Source of the DNA: Flammula alnicola
Taxonomy: Eukaryota > Basidiomycota > Agaricomycetes > Agaricales > Strophariaceae
Direction: 5' to 3'
NCBI GenBank assembly: GCA_015499995.1
Contig: JADNRV010000146.1
Location: 1 to 64,000 of the forward strand
Length of the DNA: 64,000 nt
Shown here: positions 25,582-45,849 of the stretch, piece after piece
Layout of the letters: every line of letters begins with the position of its first letter
Position numbering within the stretch: the first letter of the stretch is position 1
The notes under the pieces: generated by a model
The model's database searches: none
What the model saw: the letters and a program-made list of their open reading frames with translations, nothing else
What the model was told of the DNA's origin: nothing
Program-made: the position numbers and the translations under genes

Positions 25582-28500
25582 ATGCTTCCTTTCGTTCCAA
25601 GCTCCTTTGGCGACATCGTCGCCGCCGCAACCCTTGCTCTCTCAATTTACAAAGCTCTCAGTGACAGCACGGGATCCTCATACGAGTATCAATGTTTGAT
25701 CAGCGAACTGCGTTCGTTCCATCACGCCTTGCTATTCGTGAACAACGTAATTCGTGCAACTTCCCCCAACGAAACTGTGGTGCAGGATATCCAGGAAGAA
25801 GCCGCAACGTGTCTCAAATTGCTGGAGAACTTCTGGGATCGTATCAAGTCGTACCAGAAGGCTCTCGGTGGTGGAGGACGAAACTCCTCTTGGCGCAAAA
25901 TCGGGTGGGGTCTTTTCAAGGCCAACGAAGTTGCGGAGTTCAGACAGAAGCTTTCTCAACATAAACAAAATCTTACAGTGTTTTTGAGTGGAATGGGAAT
26001 GTAAGTTGGATCCCGCACTAAACGTCTTCATCATCACTAATGCTACGCTACCTCAGTTTCTTATTCTCCTACCACGCCGACGGCATTAGAGAGACCTTGG
26101 CGTCAATTACGACAGCAACGAAGGAGATAACGACAACAACGCAAGAGATACTCAGAGTCACAATACAGAAGCAACTACCTCCATCCCTAGCGTATGGTCG
26201 TGAAAACGCCGTGATCCTGATAAATGCGTTTGGGAAGCAGATGACGTTGCCAATGGAGTTTTGCTACTCACCAGACGTGCGCCTTTTATGTGCATTTCCT
26301 TCGTTACGCTCATATATCAGGCACAGAAACTTCACGATACTCTGATGCAGTACTTCAAGGATAAGATCGGTCGCGACTATGTTAGGCAGCACGAATACAG
26401 CATTTCCAGCGAGGATGGCAAGGCAGTCGTAAAGTATCCATCTCATTGGGGTTCAGTGGTGAAGAAAGGGGCGGTTGTTGTCATGAGCATGAAGGTGAGG
26501 AGGATAAAGCTGACGTCGAAGTCCACTGCGCTTCAGAGGACGGCATGTCCACGATGTTACAGAACAGATGTTGGTGTGATGCGGGACGAAGGATGGTTAG
26601 AGTGGTGAGCGTAATTTGCCATTTTTCCTTGCATTTAATGACGGTTGCATTCTAGTCGGCGTTGCGAACGACGCTTCGGTTGGGCGGATACGCCAATAAG
26701 AGCGGAAAAGCCACCTTTGAAGAACCTGAGCATTGTGGACTTCCGCAATATTCAGCTTGTGCCAGTAAAAAAGGTAAATACAAGCATTTGGTAGAGACGC
26801 ATTTGCAGTATTCTCACAATTTCCTTGCCTGTGATCCTTTCTAGCATGTACGCGAACTTGTTGATTGAGCACCGACCGGCCCTCTGACGATTCCGTCTTG
26901 CTTGCGCATTTCCAGATTGTACGTGGACTTGTTGATTGAGCCCCAACCGGCCCTCTGATGATTCCGTCTTGCTTGCACATTTCCAGAAAGTATGTGAACT
27001 TGTTGATTGAGCCCCAACCGGCCCTCTGACGATTCCGTCTTGCTTGCACATTTCCAGAAAGTACGTGAACTTGTTGATTGAGCACCGACCGGCCCTCTGA
27101 CGATTTCGTCTTGCTTGCGCATTTCCAGTATGTACGTGAACTTGTTGATTCAGCTCCTAACGGCCCTCTGACGATTCCGTCTTGCTTGCGCATTTCCAGA
27201 CTGTCAATATTCAGCTTGTGCCAGTAAAAAAGGTAAATACAAGCATTTGGTAGAGACGCATTTGCAGTATTCTCACAATTTCCTTGCCTGTGATCCTTTC
27301 TAGCATGTACGCGAACTTGTTGATTGAGCACCGACCGGCCCTCTGACGATTCCGTCTTGCTTGCGCATTTCCAGATTGTACGTGAACTTGTTGATCGAGC
27401 CCCAACCGGCCCTCTGACGATTCCGTCTTGCTTGCGCATTTCTAGCATGTACGTGAACTTGTTGATTGAGCCCCGACCGGCCCTCTGATCATTCCGTCTT
27501 GCTTGTGCATTTCCAGAAAGTATGTGAACTTGATTGAGCCCTGACCGGCCCTCTGACGATTCTGTCTTGCTTGCGCATTTCCAGAATGTACGTGAACTTG
27601 TTGATTGAGCACCGACCGGCCCTCTGACGATTCCGTCTTGCTTGCGCATTTCCAGAAAGTACGTGAACTTGTTGATTGAGCACCGACCCGCCCTCTGACG
27701 ATTCCGTCTTGCTTGTGCATTTCCAGGATGTACGTGAACTTATTGATTGAGCCCCGACCGGCCCTCTGATGGTTCCGTCTTGCTTGCGCATTTCCAGAAA
27801 GTACGTGAACTTGTTGATTGAGCCCTGACCGGCCCTCTGACGATTCCGTCTTGCTTGCGCATTTCCAGTATGTACGTGAACTTGTTGATTGAGCCCCGAC
27901 CGGCCCTCTGACGATTCCGTCTTGCTTGCACATTTCCAGTATGTACGTGAACTTGTTGATTCAGCTCCTACCGGCCCTCTGACGATTCCGTCTTGCTTGC
28001 GCATTTCCAGAAAGTACGTGAACTTGTTGATTGAGCCTCGACCGGCCCTCTGATGATTCCGTCTTGCTTGCGCATTTCCAGAAAGTATGTGAACTTGTTG
28101 ATTGAGCCCCAACCGGCCCTCTGATGATTCCGTCTTGCTTGCGCATTTCCAGCTTGTATGTGAACTTGTTGATTGAGCCCCAACCGGCCCTCTGACGATT
28201 CCGTCTCACTTGCACATTTCCAGCTTGTACGTGAACTTGTTGATTGAACACCGACCGCCTCTCTGACAGTCGCAATCACTCTGATTTTTCGCACCTCCAG
28301 AAAGTATGTGCCTCCGTAACATTGCCAGTCATATTCTATGCTCACTGACCGTGTCTCGCACATTGCAGTGGGTCAGTATTTCGTTTTAGGCGTAGCTGAG
28401 AATACTCATGTGTACTGGCTATCACCTTCCTCCTCTGGGTATGTTCTCAAGCTGACGGCCACTTCCATTTGCTTACATGCTTCCATAACATCTTCCAGAT

Positions 28501-28615
28501 TGAACTCGCGCAGGAAGATGCAAAAGCTGACGAAGCCAGTCGATGTGAGTGTTCTGGTAGTCCATGCTCGTTTTGTTCTGACAATGTTTATTTAGTTGAG
28601 GAAATTCTCCCCTAA
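25582..28615 (+). CDS. Fungal N-terminal-domain / ubiquitin-like-domain protein with single-codon exon array (copy A)
   Basis: Exon 1 (25582-26000) encodes MLPFVPSSFGDIVAAATLAL and LISELRSFHHALLFVNNVI. This helical domain resembles the fungal N-terminal domains found on STAND/NLR-like and ubiquitin-like-domain proteins. Exon 2 (26057-26276) and exon 3 (26321-26604) encode a ubiquitin-like fold region: ENAVILINAFGKQMTLPMEF, then LHDTLMQYFKDKIGRDYV and KKGAVVVMSMKVRR. A CPRC...CRRC pair follows, resembling a zinc ribbon. Exon 4 (26656-26773) ends NIQLVPVKK in phase 0. The intron array begins at 26774. The last exon (28499-28615) encodes IELAQEDAKADEASRCECSG and ends at TAA 28613-28615. ATG 25582 was chosen because both copies share it and lack an upstream in-frame ATG. 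Function is unknown; a signalling or self/non-self role is inference from domain company. Confidence 0.75.
26774..28498 (+). repeat. Tandem intron array with 3-nt exons (copy A)
   Basis: Units of usually 71 bp, each starting GTACGTGAACTTG or GTATGTGAACTTG, with a CTCTGACGATTCCG branch region, and ending GCATTTCCAG. Between each AG and the next GT lie exactly three bases. In order from 26845 they are CAT, ATT, AAA, AAA, TAT; then a 33-nt exon (27200-27232) beginning ACT. From 27304 they are CAT, ATT, CAT, AAA, AAT, AAA, GAT, AAA, TAT, TAT, AAA, AAA, CTT, CTT, AAA, TGG. Unit lengths of 68 and 77 also occur, yet the spacer stays 3 nt. The 33-nt exon repeats the end of exon 4 (NIQLVPVKK) and the first special intron, so the array also contains a higher-order duplication of about 460 bp. 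Confidence 0.9.
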
Positions 28616-40007: not shown

Positions 40008-43000
40008 GATTGTAGCTGAAGTGAGGCGGACGGGCTCGCGGGTGAGTCAATGTTTGTAAGTATGTGAAGTTATCGCACGCTCCTGGTCGTTGGCCATTGG
40101 ACGAAGCTGTTAATCGTCGCATCTCATATTCAAGTTCGTCCTTTATTAATTTCCGCCTTTCCATTTGTTTTTCCGGAGCCTATCCTTTTCTATCCCGCAG
40201 AGAAAGTTGAAATTTGTCCTCCTAAGTATCTACTCAAATTCAGGGCGTTTTTCCGATTCAGACCTGTCGTGGCCACTTACGTGATACACTGTACCATCTG
40301 ATTCTTCATATCTTCGCCCACCAGCCATCATCACACCGTTCGGCCAGCCTCACCACCACCAAGATGGGCACCCCTGTGCCGCTGACCGCTGCCTCCCACG
40401 CCGACGGCGAAGCGAGCACAGAGCAGGACCAAAATCACCACTTGTCTCCACTGTGGCCTGAAAACCTTTGCCAGACTCAATTCGCGATCGTCGTAAGCGT
40501 TCTCATTTTATTTATTCTTTCAGGTTTTTTCCACTAAACGCGCACTGTAGACGTAGCTCTAATGCCGCCGCCACCTATCGACTTGAAGAATACGACCCTC
40601 AACGTTCAGCGTTCAACGTTGGCCTCGTTTCGCCGCCAGGAGAACCATTGCTCGATCATTGTTCAGCGAATAGGCCATCCCAGCGAGTTATGGAATGAAT
40701 AGGCTAACCTGTCCATATCATCTCTGGCTGCCCTCGTCGCCATCGATGAGGTCGGACCCATCGTTCCACCATAGGCGCCACATTCGGGACCACCTCCACC
40801 GTCGGCGGAGCTCCTCTCATACGTGGAACTCGAGCAACCTGTCCCATCTGGGCTGGATCCGGAATCCGGATGGTGCAGCGGCTTTCAAAGCTGGCCGCTC
40901 TGCGATCTCCCTTCATCCTAATGCATCACCTTCCTCCCCAGATCTCCGACTTCCCGACTCAATTCAAAGTCTTGTACCCTCTCTTCGCCATTTTCAGTGC
41001 AAAAAGCCAACATAAACGACACCCCTTTAACCGAAACCATGTTTCACTCTGGCGCCCCCAATTCGGTTTCGTTTGGCGTAGCTGAAATGGTTCTCCTTCC
41101 TCCAAAACTTGAACACGCCTATCACTTACATTGGACTTATATTTCAGAGGAGGAGGAATTGGAGGTTGGAGGGCGGCGGTGCGACGTGCTCGTGCTGGGG
41201 TCAAGAATACGCGTTCGGCGCCCCACATCAAGGCTTGCCGCTTCTTGCAGCCGGACTCGATAACTTGAAGGCTTGCAAGAATACAACGTCCGCTCAATGC
41301 TCCAGAATTCGGTGATGGTGGATTCACATCATCCTCGGCATCTCCAACGGGTTCCATCCTCCGCTGGTCATCCGTTTTCCTTCTTGCCAGTTTGGTCGAT
41401 ATCTGGACCTCTCGCCATTCTCTGTCCTCGGCATCTCCAATGGGTTGCCTCCTCCGCTGGTCATCCGTTTTCCTTCTTGCCAGTTTGGTCAATATCTGGA
41501 TCTCTCGCCATTCTCTGTCCTCCAGCCATATCTGCGTCTGCGTTGAACATTTCATATGTAACACACGCCAGTTTATAGGCCGGGATCTACATGGAAGTTA
41601 CGAAAGACTCGCCCATCCCTTCGGATTAAAACCCAATACCACTTTGCTTACACTTTCGAGCATCGGAAGCGGTGGATGTCGAGGTTCGGTCCGGGGTGTG
41701 GGCACTGTCCGGGGCGCAATGCATATATCACTGCTGACAGTGGCGCTTTCTTTGGTTCGGCTTTTTTATCGCTTTTATTTTCAGCGCTTGATGAACTTGA
41801 CCTTCTTTCAGGGTACATATAATTTCACTCGTCATCCTACGGGGACTCCGAGTCGAATTCAGCTTTCCACTCCACCCTTGGTCGACGGGCAGGTCTGTGG
41901 CGAATCCACTTCTTTTCTTTCTCGTGTACGTTTTACCTTGGCCATTACTCTTCAACGCTGACTTGCTGTTGTAAATAGATATCTTCGTTTAAGTATGATA
42001 TCCAGACACGGCCCGACTGGACGGAATATGAAGTCGCGATTACCGGCATTGCAGAATTCTCCTGCGATACTAGGAGACGGGCAAGTATACCCTGCGAGTC
42101 AAAAAGTTGAACGTTGAAGTTGAAAGTGACCGTGAACAGTTGGCATTGTACCTACTGGGATGTCAGGATCAGCCCGGATTGGCGATTGTTCTTCTACCTT
42201 TCAATTCTCCCAGGCGAGCGTATCGCTCGCAGGACCTTCTGTGCCGCTTCGCACTGCCACCTCTGAGCGCTTGTCACCATGCACCCTCGTTCTCGTCTCG
42301 TCTCGTCAGCCCTTAAAGGGCGGCCAGTTTTATACGACAGTCAGAAAGGGATATACAAGGCCTCCATTATCTTCGCCCATCTTCATAGCTTGGCCGTGGC
42401 TATCTGTGGGTTCGCTGCTTTGTACGGTCCTCACGCCAACCAAACGTCCGTCAGAGAGCGTCGACATTTTCCATCAACCTCTCTTGTAATGCGCTAACCA
42501 AAATCGTCAATTTAGACCGTTTTTCTCAGGTTTCGCGCTGCTCATACGAGGCGTGCAGTAGACTTAGCTTCAATATGCCGAAACCCAGGTTTCAACGGCG
42601 TCGCCTCCTTTTCTCCCCCCTGAAAAGTCAGGTTCTTGGCAAGGAGCTTCATTTTCAAAGAGACCTCCTTGTCTAATTTTTGGATGAGGTCACTTCTTTT
42701 AGTTTCGGAGTTGCTACTGACGCATTTTGAGACGGTTACGATGAACCCTTTTTGTATCAATAGCTTTAAGAACATCCAAATGAGTTACCACTTGAAACGC
42801 TCGACGGCATGTAGCATCGCCTTATTGTCTCGTTCGATTGTTCGCCCATGTCACATCACATAAGATAGGTCGAGGCAGTGAAAAGGCGGTGAAATTTAAC
42901 ACGCCTCGCATCGGTAAAACCTGACATTATAAGGCATTTCGGAAATTTCCGACAACGCGGTTTCCATGCTGTGATACATTCTTTAGCCCTCGGTCAATGT

Positions 43001-43018: not shown

Positions 43019-45849
43019 ATGCTTCCTTTCGTTCCCAGCTCCTTTGGCGACATCGTCGCCGCTGCCACTCTTGCTCTCTCAATTTACAAAGCTCTCAACG
43101 ACAGCACGGGAGCCTCATACGAGTATCAATGCTTGATCAGCGAACTGCGTTCTTTCCATCACGCCTTGCTATTCGTGAACAACGTAATTCGTGCAACTCT
43201 ACCCAATGAAACTGTGGCGCAGGATATCAAGGAAGAAGCCGCAACGTGTCTCGAGTTGCTGGAGATGTTCTGGGATCGTATCAAGTCATATCAGAAGGCT
43301 CTCAGCGGTGGGGGACGGAACTCCTCTTGGCGCAAAATCGGGTGGGGTCTTTTCAAGGCCAACGAAGTTGCGGAGTTCAGACAGAAGCTTTCTCAACATA
43401 AGCAAAATCTTACAGTCTTTTTGAGTGGACTGGCAATGTTAGTTGGATCTCGCACTAAACGTCTTCATCGTCACTAATGCCATGCTACCTCAGTTCCTTA
43501 ACTTCCTACCACACCGACGTCATTAGAGAGGCCTTGGCGTCGATTACGACAACAACGCAAGAGATACTCACAATACAGAAACAACTAGCTCCATCCCTTG
43601 GGTATGGTCGTGAAAACGCCGTGATCCTGATAGATGCATTCGGGAAGCCGATGACGTTGCCACTGGACTTTTGCTCCTCACCAGACGTGCGTCTTTTTTG
43701 TGCATTTCCTTCTATACACTCATACGTCAGGTACAGAAACTTCACGATATTCTGATGCTGCACTTTAAGGGAAAGATCGGTCACGACTATGTTGAGCAGC
43801 ACGAATACGGCATTTCCAGCGAGGATGGTAAGGCAGTCGTAAAGTATCCATTTGAATGGGGTTCAGTGGTGAAGAAAGGGGCGGTTGTTGTCATGAGCAT
43901 GAAGGTAAGGAGGGTAAAGCTGACGTCGGAGTCTGCTGCGCTTCAGAGGACGACATGTCCGCGATGTTACAGAACATATGTTGGTGTGATGCAAGATGAA
44001 GGATGGCTAGAGTGGTAAGCATAATTTGCCAATTTTCCTTGCATTTAATGACCGCTGCAATCTAGTCGGCGTTGCGAACGACGCTTCCGTTGGGCAGATA
44101 CAGCAATACGTGCGAATAGGCCACCTTTGAAGGACCTGAGCATTGTGGACTTCCGCAATATTCAGCTTGTGCCAGTCGAAAAGGTAAATACAAGCATTTG
44201 GTAGAAATGCATTTTCAGTATTCTCACAATTTCCTCGCCTGTGAGCATTTGTAGAATGTACGTGGACTTGTTGATCGAGCACCGACTGTCTCTCTGACGA
44301 TTCCGTCTTGCTTGCGCATTTCCAGAATGTACGTGAACTTGTTGATTGAGCACTGACCGGCCCTCTGACGATTCCGTCTCGCTTGTGCATTTCCAGCGAG
44401 TATGTGAACTTGCAAGTTGATTGAGCACCGACGGGCCCTCTGACGATTCCATCTCGTCCACGCATTTCCAGTATGTAAGTAAACTTGTTGATTGAGCACG
44501 GACCGGCCCTCTGATTATTCTTCCTTGCTTGCGCATTTCTAGCCTGTATGTGAACTCATTGATTGAGCACCAACCAGCCTTCTGACAATTCCCTGTTGCT
44601 TGCGCATTTCCAGCGAGTGCGTGAACTGGTTGATTGAGCACCGACCGGCCCCCTGATGATTCCGTCTCGCTCGCGCATTTCCAGGGTGTACGTGAACTTG
44701 TTGATTGAGCACCGATGAGCCCTCTGACGGTTCCGTCTCCTCTACACATTTTCAGCATGTATGTGAACTTGTTGATTGACCATCGACCGGCCCTCTCACG
44801 ATTCCATCTTGCTTGCGCATTTCCAGATTGTACGTGAACTTGTTGATTGAGCACCAACCGGCCCTCTGATGATTCCGTCTTGCTTGCGTATTTCCAGCTT
44901 GTACGTGAACTTGTTTATTGAGCACCAACTGGCCCTCTGACAATCCTGTCTTGCTTGCGCATTTCCAGGCAGTAAGTCAACTTGGTGATTGTGCAGCAAC
45001 TGGCCTCTGATGATTCCGTCTTGCTCGCGCAATTCCAGGGTGTACGTGAACTTGTTGATCGAGCACCGACCGCCCCTCTGACAATTTCGTCTTGCTTGCA
45101 CATTTCCAGCAAGTATGTGAACTTGTTAATTGAGCACCAACTGGCCCTCTGACGATTCCTCTCGCTTGTGCACTTCCAGCTCGTATGTGAACTTGTTGAT
45201 TGAGCACCGACCATCCCTCTGATGATTCTGTCTTGCTTGCGCATTTCCAGGTTGTACGTGAACTTTTTGATTGAGCACCGACCGGCCCTCTAACGATTCC
45301 GTCTCACTTGAACATTTCCAGCGAGTACGTGAACTTGTTGATTGAGCACCGACCAGCCCTCTGATGATTCTACCTTGCTTGCGCATTTCCAGCTTGTACG
45401 TGAATTTCTTGATTGAACAACCGGCCCTCTGACGATTCCGTCTTGCTTGCGCATTTCCAGGAAGTAAGTGAACTTGGTTGATTGAGCACCGACTACCCCT
45501 GACACTCGCAATCACTCTGATTTTGCACACCTCCAGCAAGTATGTGCCTCTGCAACATTGCCAGTCATTCTATGCTCACTGACCATGGTCTCGCGCGTTG
45601 CAGTGGGTAAGTATTTCATTTTAGGCGTAGCTGAGAATACTCATGTGTACTGCCTATCTCCTTCCTCTTCTGGGTATGTTCTCAAGCTGAATGCGACTTC
45701 CATTTCCTTACATACTTTCATAACATTTCCAGATTGAACTCGGGCAGAATGCGGCAAAAGCTGATGAAGCCAGTCGATGTGAGTGTTCTGGAAATCCATG
45801 CTCGTTTCGTTCTGACGATGTTTATGTAGTTGAGGAAATTCTTTCCTAA
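43019..45849 (+). CDS. Fungal N-terminal-domain / ubiquitin-like-domain protein with single-codon exon array (copy B)
   Basis: Paralogue of 25582-28615 with the same exon plan: 43019-43437, 43494-43686, 43731-44014, 44066-44183, the intron array, then 45733-45849. The first donor is GTTAGT instead of GTAAGT. Exon 2 is 27 nt shorter than in copy A: an in-frame loss of nine codons within a threonine-rich stretch. The ubiquitin-like region reads ENAVILIDAFGKPMTLPLDF and KKGAVVVMSMKVRR; CPRC...CRRC is kept. The last exon has exactly the same length (117 nt) and reads IELGQNAAKADEASRCECSG, ending at TAA 45847. All exons are open with matching phases, so both copies look under constraint. Function is unknown. 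Confidence 0.75.
44184..45732 (+). repeat. Tandem intron array with 3-nt exons (copy B)
   Basis: Twenty 3-nt spacers, each between an acceptor AG and a donor GT. In order from 44255 they are AAT, AAT, CGA, TAT, CCT, CGA, GGT, CAT, ATT, CTT, GCA, GGT, CAA, CTC, GTT, CGA, CTT, GAA, CAA and, at 45604, TGG. Intervals between successive spacers run 68, 70, 71, 75 and 76 bp. Donors vary (GTACGT, GTATGT, GTAAGT, GTGCGT) but all fit the fungal donor consensus. Acceptors are CAG or TAG. Units are more diverged from one another than in copy A. Confidence 0.9.

Follow-up and report, generated by a model that had tools for sequence, protein, structure and literature searches.

The window considered here is the whole stretch of 64,000 nucleotides formed by bases 1-64000 of contig C53 in the Flammula alnicola genome, which was searched over 74.4 Mb in 861 contigs. 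It contains two paralogous genes, A and B, with the same predicted layout: four ordinary exons, an array in which very small exons alternate with short introns, a 46-nt exon and a last exon (Table 1). The array of gene B is the second and more diverged of the two, and lies 17 kb from the array of gene A. When the predicted junctions are spliced in silico, gene A is open from end to end for 398 codons, and gene B is open from MLPFVPSSFGDIV to its stop for 377 codons. Upstream of gene B, at 41332-41522 of the window, a 93-bp unit occurs in 2.1 copies.

Table 1. Predicted features of genes A and B (window positions) and of two related loci (contig positions).
Feature	Position	Strand	Remarks
Gene A exon 1	25582..26000	+	ATG; donor GTAAGT at 26001; predicted, GenBank model P0001; N-terminal helical region
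Gene A exon 2	26057..26276	+	starts at the earlier acceptor, as in P0001
Gene A exon 3	26327..26604	+	in-silico splicing
Gene A exon 4	26656..26773	+	ends ...NIQLVPVKK, phase 0
Array A	26774..28498	+	short GT..YAG introns separating 21 three-nt exons and one of 33 nt
In-frame exon of 33 nt within array A	27200..27232	+	ACT GTC AAT ... AAG, TVNIQLVPVKK
Gene A post-array exon, 46 nt	28499..28544	+	IELAQEDAKADEASR..; same tail used in GenBank model P0005
Gene A last exon	28596..28615	+	..FEEILP stop; TAA at 28615; preceded by a 51-nt intron
Gene B exon 1	43019..43437	+	in-silico splicing
Gene B exon 2	43494..43686	+	relatives favour this earlier acceptor; the alternative at 43527 is 33 nt shorter and also in frame
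Gene B exon 3	43737..44014	+	KLHD..; later acceptor, as in GenBank models; the alternative at 43731 gives two residues more
Gene B exon 4	44066..44183	+	CRRCERRF.. to NIQLVPVEK; zinc-ribbon-like
Array B	44184..45732	+	20 three-nt exons; introns 64-73 nt
Gene B post-array exon	45733..45778	+	IELGQNAAKADEASR..; in-silico splicing
Gene B last exon	45830..45849	+	..FEEILS stop; in-silico splicing
L012	C157:318500-326000		array 2452 nt, the longest; 31 one-codon exons and in-frame exons of 21, 18 and 18 nt
L009	C53:73000-79000		relative of L013; array broken by an insertion of ~1.4 kb, another insertion downstream

The triplets of array A read, in order, CAT ATT AAA AAA TAT / CAT ATT CAT AAA AAT AAA GAT AAA TAT TAT AAA AAA CTT CTT AAA TGG, where the slash marks the place of the 33-nt exon, and the peptide of the array is HIKKY-TVNIQLVPVKK-HIHKNKDKYYKKLLKW. 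The 33-nt exon, judged by its letters, arose through an internal duplication that copied part of the end of exon 4. The introns of this array are mostly 68 nt long (65-74), with GTAYG donors, a CTGAY branch region and YAG acceptors. A sequence-only reading of the window had described the array in these terms, with phase 0 on both sides and without a stop among its triplets, and parsing bears this out. The same reading spaced the units by exactly three bases, which is true for the 21 triplets but not for the 33-nt exon. The first intron (GTAAAT..., 71 nt) and the last ones are unlike the repeat unit in sequence. What it called the final exon is in phase 0 as stated, but is followed by one more intron and a further, short exon.

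Array B encodes N N R Y P R G H I L A G Q L V R L E Q W, i.e., the peptide NNRYPRGHILAGQLVRLEQW. Its exons 1-10 are at 44255, 44326, 44397, 44472, 44543, 44614, 44685, 44756, 44827 and 44898, and its exons 11-20 at 44969, 45039, 45110, 45180, 45251, 45322, 45393, 45461, 45537 and 45604. At three mismatches or fewer, array A holds 18 copies of a 21-base core of the unit and array B holds 11, while shuffled sequence gives 0.01 on average. The parser that defines the units requires a 3-nt spacing and GT..G/AG. After parsing, the sole interval longer than 74 nt in the intact arrays is the one that holds the 33-nt exon, and from this follows that no differently spaced unit is hidden in them.

Consider now the introns of the arrays, which over the family are 35-76 nt long and mostly 68 nt. 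In the six genes that, apart from L012, are complete from array to stop (see below), all 115 array introns start with GT and end with YAG, and 68 of the 114 that are shorter than 100 nt have a length of 68 nt (range 35-74). If retained, 85 of the 115 would bring in an in-frame stop, with the median at codon 7. When 106 unit introns from six distinct arrays (A, B, L010, L012, L013 and L016) are aligned, the invariant columns are G1, T2 and G5 of the donor and T38 and A40 of the branch motif, while the mean conservation of intron body columns is 0.88; these core columns were named after the alignment had been viewed. We take CTGAY to be the branch motif and A40 its branch adenosine. G1, T2, G5 and the terminal AG are also demanded by the parser, but T38 and A40 are not. 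The units thus have the GT..AG ends, in part imposed by the parser, and the branch adenosine conserved above the rest that mark spliceosomal introns. Since the units are copies by descent, neither columns nor stops count as independent samples.

Arrays are carried by A, B, L010, L011, L012, L013, L009, L014, L015, L016 and L017, with fragments at L018 and L019, and the runs of single codons number 12 to 31 per array. Seven genes (A, B, L010, L012, L013, L014 and L016) are complete from array to stop. Outside the counts for these seven are L011 and L009, which have insertions, L015 and L017, which are near copies of L016, and the fragments L018 and L019. L018, in which one exon has a parsed length of 2 nt, borders the end of a contig and has many one-base gaps. 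The seven complete genes have 150 array exons, of which 146 measure 3 nt and the remaining four 33, 21, 18 and 18 nt. Every one of the 150 has a length divisible by three and none contains a stop, so that any combination of splices stays in frame, as the sequence-only reading had it. The seven genes have one C-terminal tail in common, of the form [I/N]EL...EASRF.EI.., and the arrays in front of it encode 12, 20, 21, 32 or 50 residues. The array peptide is NIRYGRGHPLAGQLVRLEQW in L016, DKRIYLNIYEEKLNIVRLEQW in both L010 and L014, FPFINIRLEIQW in L013 and DFDDDFVKDTLEPLVNVDKDD-PQEHFKA-MSYFQA-KNVQD-LEHFKN-LAQQW in L012.

In three units of L012 the acceptor CAG is now AAG, and a TAG or CAG further upstream gives the 21-, 18- and 18-nt exons, all three of which end at the usual donor of the unit, in frame and without a stop. 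Were length free, three in-frame lengths in three would be expected with a chance of 1 in 27. Two of these exons, PQEHFKA and MSYFQA, are included in GenBank model P0005, where they are joined to IELAQEDAKADEASRFEEILP; this model uses only the larger array exons and omits those of one codon. Among the other GenBank models for Flammula, P0002, P0003 and P0004 stop before the array and P0001 reads into the units. L011 differs from L012 at 14 of the 2452 bases of the array; in L012 the tail follows directly after the array, and in L011 it lies beyond an insertion of ~3.6 kb in the last intron. L009 differs from L013 by one triplet (CCA for CGA). L015, L016 and L017 show the same array pattern on three contigs (C643, C479 and C560), either by recent duplication or as haplotypes that were assembled separately.

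The arrays could in principle belong to an antisense gene or a structural RNA. The consensus unit lacks a stop in every minus-strand frame, and this gives long minus-strand open reading frames, of 243 aa in B and 322 aa in A. However, minus-strand stops break all seven arrays tested, where the longest frame is 147-322 aa in 986-2458 nt, Rfam has no match between 26000 and 46800 of the window, and the arrays are flanked by sense-coding exons. We regard this explanation as very improbable.

Two homology searches returned 22 and 74 proteins, in all 88 distinct ones, and two of these, from other species, run through the place of the array. P0011, from a 1486-nt contig of JGI source, reads FRNIRILLVER-SLLWVELVELLALARRREKW-CQAEAEEANRFVEIS: seven residues follow FRNI, then come 20 contiguous residues ending in W, and then the tail. 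Array B has the same number of one-codon exons and also ends in W. P0024, from a 1081-nt contig, has 22 contiguous residues ending in W when counted in the same way. Many other environmental proteins of the family stop at ..GWLQW or similar, where intron 3 begins, whereas the contigs of P0011 and P0024 run through intron 3 and the other junctions; with the gene's other introns missing, they probably derive from cDNA. A homology search from the C-terminus of P0011 matched only P0011 itself. P0025 was set aside as evidence: it is without the shared tail, and it contains VREL, which looks like a read-in intron.

GenBank models of the family stop at one and the same point across several genera of mushrooms, which a run of one-codon exons after exon 4 would explain. 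Models that, by their protein frames, read into a unit are P0006 (..VRELVY) and P0008 (..LYVSWLIEHSLSL) in Galerina, P0081 (..VREPVN) and P0007 (..NVR) in Phlegmacium, P0023 (..HVR) in Pholiota, P0010 (..AYVALFI) in Psilocybe, P0012 (..MYTNKLIEHWPPL) in Gymnopilus, and the environmental P0040-P0043 and P0045. A pattern for such read-through flagged 16 of the 88 proteins, and P0012 was added by eye; P0002, P0003, P0017 and P0059 were rejected as false hits in the domain part. Read back by eye from the protein frames, most fit YAG, three bases and GTRYGTGA, and two units in a row fit P0008, P0040/P0045 and P0043. These by-eye readings suggest that the array architecture is common to Galerina, Phlegmacium, Pholiota, Gymnopilus and Psilocybe.

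Two other readings of the arrays can be weighed. The first is an intronic minisatellite, where a single splicing event would take out the full 1.5-1.7 kb, or the protein would end shortly after entering it. Two predicted models agree with this, P0001, which reads H, then VRELVD and a stop, and P0005, in which the one-codon exons are left out. But a single large intron would not need donor and branch columns that are invariant over the units, all 150 array exons are in frame and open, and P0011 and P0024 have a peptide here whose length matches. The minisatellite is, on balance, unlikely. In the second reading the exons are real but mainly alternative, so that free skipping gives many in-frame isoforms. 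This is what the sequence-only reading had proposed as a large isoform family; it is favoured by the in-frame length of every array exon and has a parallel in flatworm micro-exon genes, for which PMC7653826 describes protein variation by exon skipping. Yet the 20 and 22 residues of the intron-free P0011 and P0024 are about the full number, and the last six codons are unchanged in the three paralogs B, L016 and L010. These two observations point to inclusion of the units as the rule, and we find mainly alternative exons rather improbable. Of the earlier interpretation, then, the serial one-codon exons are supported by the splice columns, the seven paralogs and P0011 and P0024, but a large family of skipping isoforms is so far not supported.

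How codons and introns change in relation to each other can be followed at three levels. In the aligned units, the first two triplet columns have the lowest conservation of all (0.32 and 0.46), and the third (0.64) falls in the range of the more variable columns of the intron. Inside single arrays, identity is 80-94% for introns and 34-49% for triplets (with an earlier parse of L011), when about 37% triplet identity is expected from column composition. Between paralogs the picture is different. When B is compared with L016, 53 of 60 triplet bases are identical at equal positions, while the best match of an intron is at its own position in 5 of 17 cases; triplets, as these comparisons indicate, mostly keep their place between close paralogs, and introns less so. 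Change amounts to 7 of 60 triplet bases and 143 of 1173 intron-body positions in this pair, and because triplets here change as fast as introns, the comparison does not show purifying selection on all codons. Between L010 and L014 there are no changes in 63 triplet bases and 45 in 1184 intron-body positions (P = 0.09). The last six codons, GTT CGA CTT GAA CAA TGG, agree at 18 of 18 nt among B, L016 and L010, with 3.7 changes to be expected from the introns (P = 0.016). Stop triplets are absent from the 125 triplets of the six distinct arrays, where 4.2 are expected from column composition (P = 0.014). The tests of codon conservation and of absent stops are each modest, and jointly they speak for a coding role.

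In array A, 13 pairs of introns differ at two positions or fewer, and only two of the 13 share the 5' triplet and two the 3' triplet. The codons are therefore decoupled from the introns, and simple tandem duplication of an intron with its codon was rejected as the sole process. The decoupling could reflect either conversion limited to the introns or selection on the codons. Closely similar introns with unrelated flanking codons are also what would be seen if an introner-like element, i.e., a mobile intron family, had struck the array gene many times by chance, and such elements occur in fungi (PMC4457414). But all 160 genome matches to the unit head (three mismatches or fewer in 24 nt) lie within the array gene family, and not dispersed over unrelated genes, in a search that would miss more diverged solitary copies, and random insertion is not expected to give an exact 3-nt, phase-0 spacing. 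Such an origin is most unlikely. A pattern scan of bacterial and archaeal contigs did not find the array pattern.

The protein into which the array codons would be joined has a recognizable domain. In Pfam, ULD_2 (PF22893) scores 55.5 bits in spliced gene B (E 6.7e-15, gathering score 24.5), and PigL_N scores 16.9 bits, below its cutoff of 27.2. ULD_2 is alone above cutoff in gene B, and the NOD domain (NACHT or NB-ARC) that would make it an NLR or STAND protein is not among the domains found. In the AlphaFold model of P0011, which has a low overall confidence (65.6), a helix spans residues 258-284, with pLDDT of 61-86 in this block; it takes in 17 of the 20 variable residues (255-274) and ten residues of the tail. 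The array thus likely encodes most of a predicted C-terminal helix in a protein with a ubiquitin-like domain. Foldseek with the model of P0001 gave 728 matches at E <= 10 and none at E <= 0.001, and among the 50 matches listed of the 728 nearly all are ubiquitin-fold proteins or their complexes. That the helix has a role in recognition is speculation.

Taken together, the 3-nt spacing, the invariant donor and branch columns, the frames that stay open into a shared tail and the contiguous peptide in relatives make it quite probable that the arrays are serial one-codon exons, about 20 per run, likely joined stepwise into most of the predicted C-terminal helix. To exemplify how this may work, let each unit of ~68 nt be a complete short intron, so that the codons would be joined singly as one intron after another is removed. 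Splicing would run from 5' to 3', and with 3 nt between them two neighbouring introns could hardly both be defined at the same time. Removal of the upstream intron would place the codon at the end of the exon being built, and the donor that follows would then be free. In recursive splicing, too, removal is stepwise, with the donor regenerated at the junction. Recursive splice points, however, are found mainly in very long introns, and in the arrays each step would leave one codon behind. To splice over 20 introns out of 1.5 kb around exons of 3 nt is a demanding task, and this counts against the serial-exon reading. Such exons are nevertheless feasible, since single 1-nt exons have been proven in Fusarium (PMC12940212) and Arabidopsis (PMC4674806).

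The introns of an array, being so alike, could also provide homology for recombination, and unequal exchange within them would add, drop or swap whole codons in frame. From such exchange would follow that introns remain alike while codons differ and that arrays encode unequal numbers of residues; the variable peptide lengths and the in-frame 33-nt exon of A fit this gain, loss and swap of codons. Carried further, the gene would be a codon-shuffling gene, in which intron homology and unequal exchange within and between paralogs edit single codons in frame and produce a fast-evolving, variable helix, old and present in several Agaricales genera, possibly for self/non-self or pathogen recognition. 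We put this forward as a tentative idea that is somewhat more likely wrong than right. If true, it is exon shuffling at the smallest possible grain. If transcripts confirm the one-codon exons, they also suggest a route by which recombination within introns may alter a protein segment in steps of whole codons.

Among known systems, the micro-exon genes (MEGs) of Schistosoma and tapeworms are closest, with runs of consecutive tiny exons divisible by three. The working definition in PMC7653826 asks for seven exons or more, with micro-exons (<70 nt and divisible by 3) making up at least half, and a run of at least four. Predicted gene B falls under it, with 20 of 26 exons of 3 nt in a run of 20, and on predicted splicing the arrays are an extreme form of micro-exon gene in this sense. 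There are also differences. According to PMC10526429, MEG exons are mostly 15 nt long (6-81 in the text, 3-81 in the abstract), MEG introns are 0.1-5 kb and the products are secreted; the Flammula array exons are nearly all 3 nt, between look-alike introns of ~68 nt and always 35-76 nt, in a mushroom and in a ULD_2 protein. The 1-nt exons of Arabidopsis APC11 and Fusarium CYP621A and the consecutive micro-exons of RPS24 (3, 18 and 22 bp) show that exons of 1-3 nt can be spliced, but they number one to three per gene, against 12-31 one-codon exons in series here. Fungal introners and introner-like elements, and also stwintrons, are closely similar introns in many copies, as in the arrays. Introners, however, are dispersed over genes and stwintrons are nested, one intron within the splice site of another, whereas array units are serial with exons between and confined to one gene family at the stringency used. 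Fungal NLR repeats (WD, ANK and TPR) share tandem look-alike units, copy-number change and variable positions (PMC4986451); there the repeat itself is protein, but what repeats in the arrays is an intron, and each unit contributes mostly one codon to the protein. The sequence-only reading had called the architecture undescribed. Indeed, no serial one-codon exons were found in the accessible parts of the open-access literature searched (including PMC13149111, PMC9860276, PMC10526429, PMC11590231, PMC12940212, PMC4674806, PMC4986451, PMC7653826, PMC12686416, PMC8831610 and PMC4974935), but the principle is shared by the flatworm genes.

If transcripts confirm the predicted splicing, the arrays are an extreme with regard to exon definition, with at least 20 consecutive, mostly one-codon exons in a short-intron fungus, and a single stretch of 1.5 kb allows both stepwise splicing and the limits of intron definition to be tested. 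Other such genes may hide from gene finders that do not allow exons of 3 nt.

The triplets also have a composition of their own. The third base is T or A in 117 of 125 triplets from the six distinct arrays, compared with 47% for the exons of gene B that flank the array. The donor after GAA and GCA triplets is GTAAGT (GTGAGT once), and that after NNT triplets is mostly GTACGT, so that, to judge from these letters, the choice of codon seems to be coupled to the donor that follows it.
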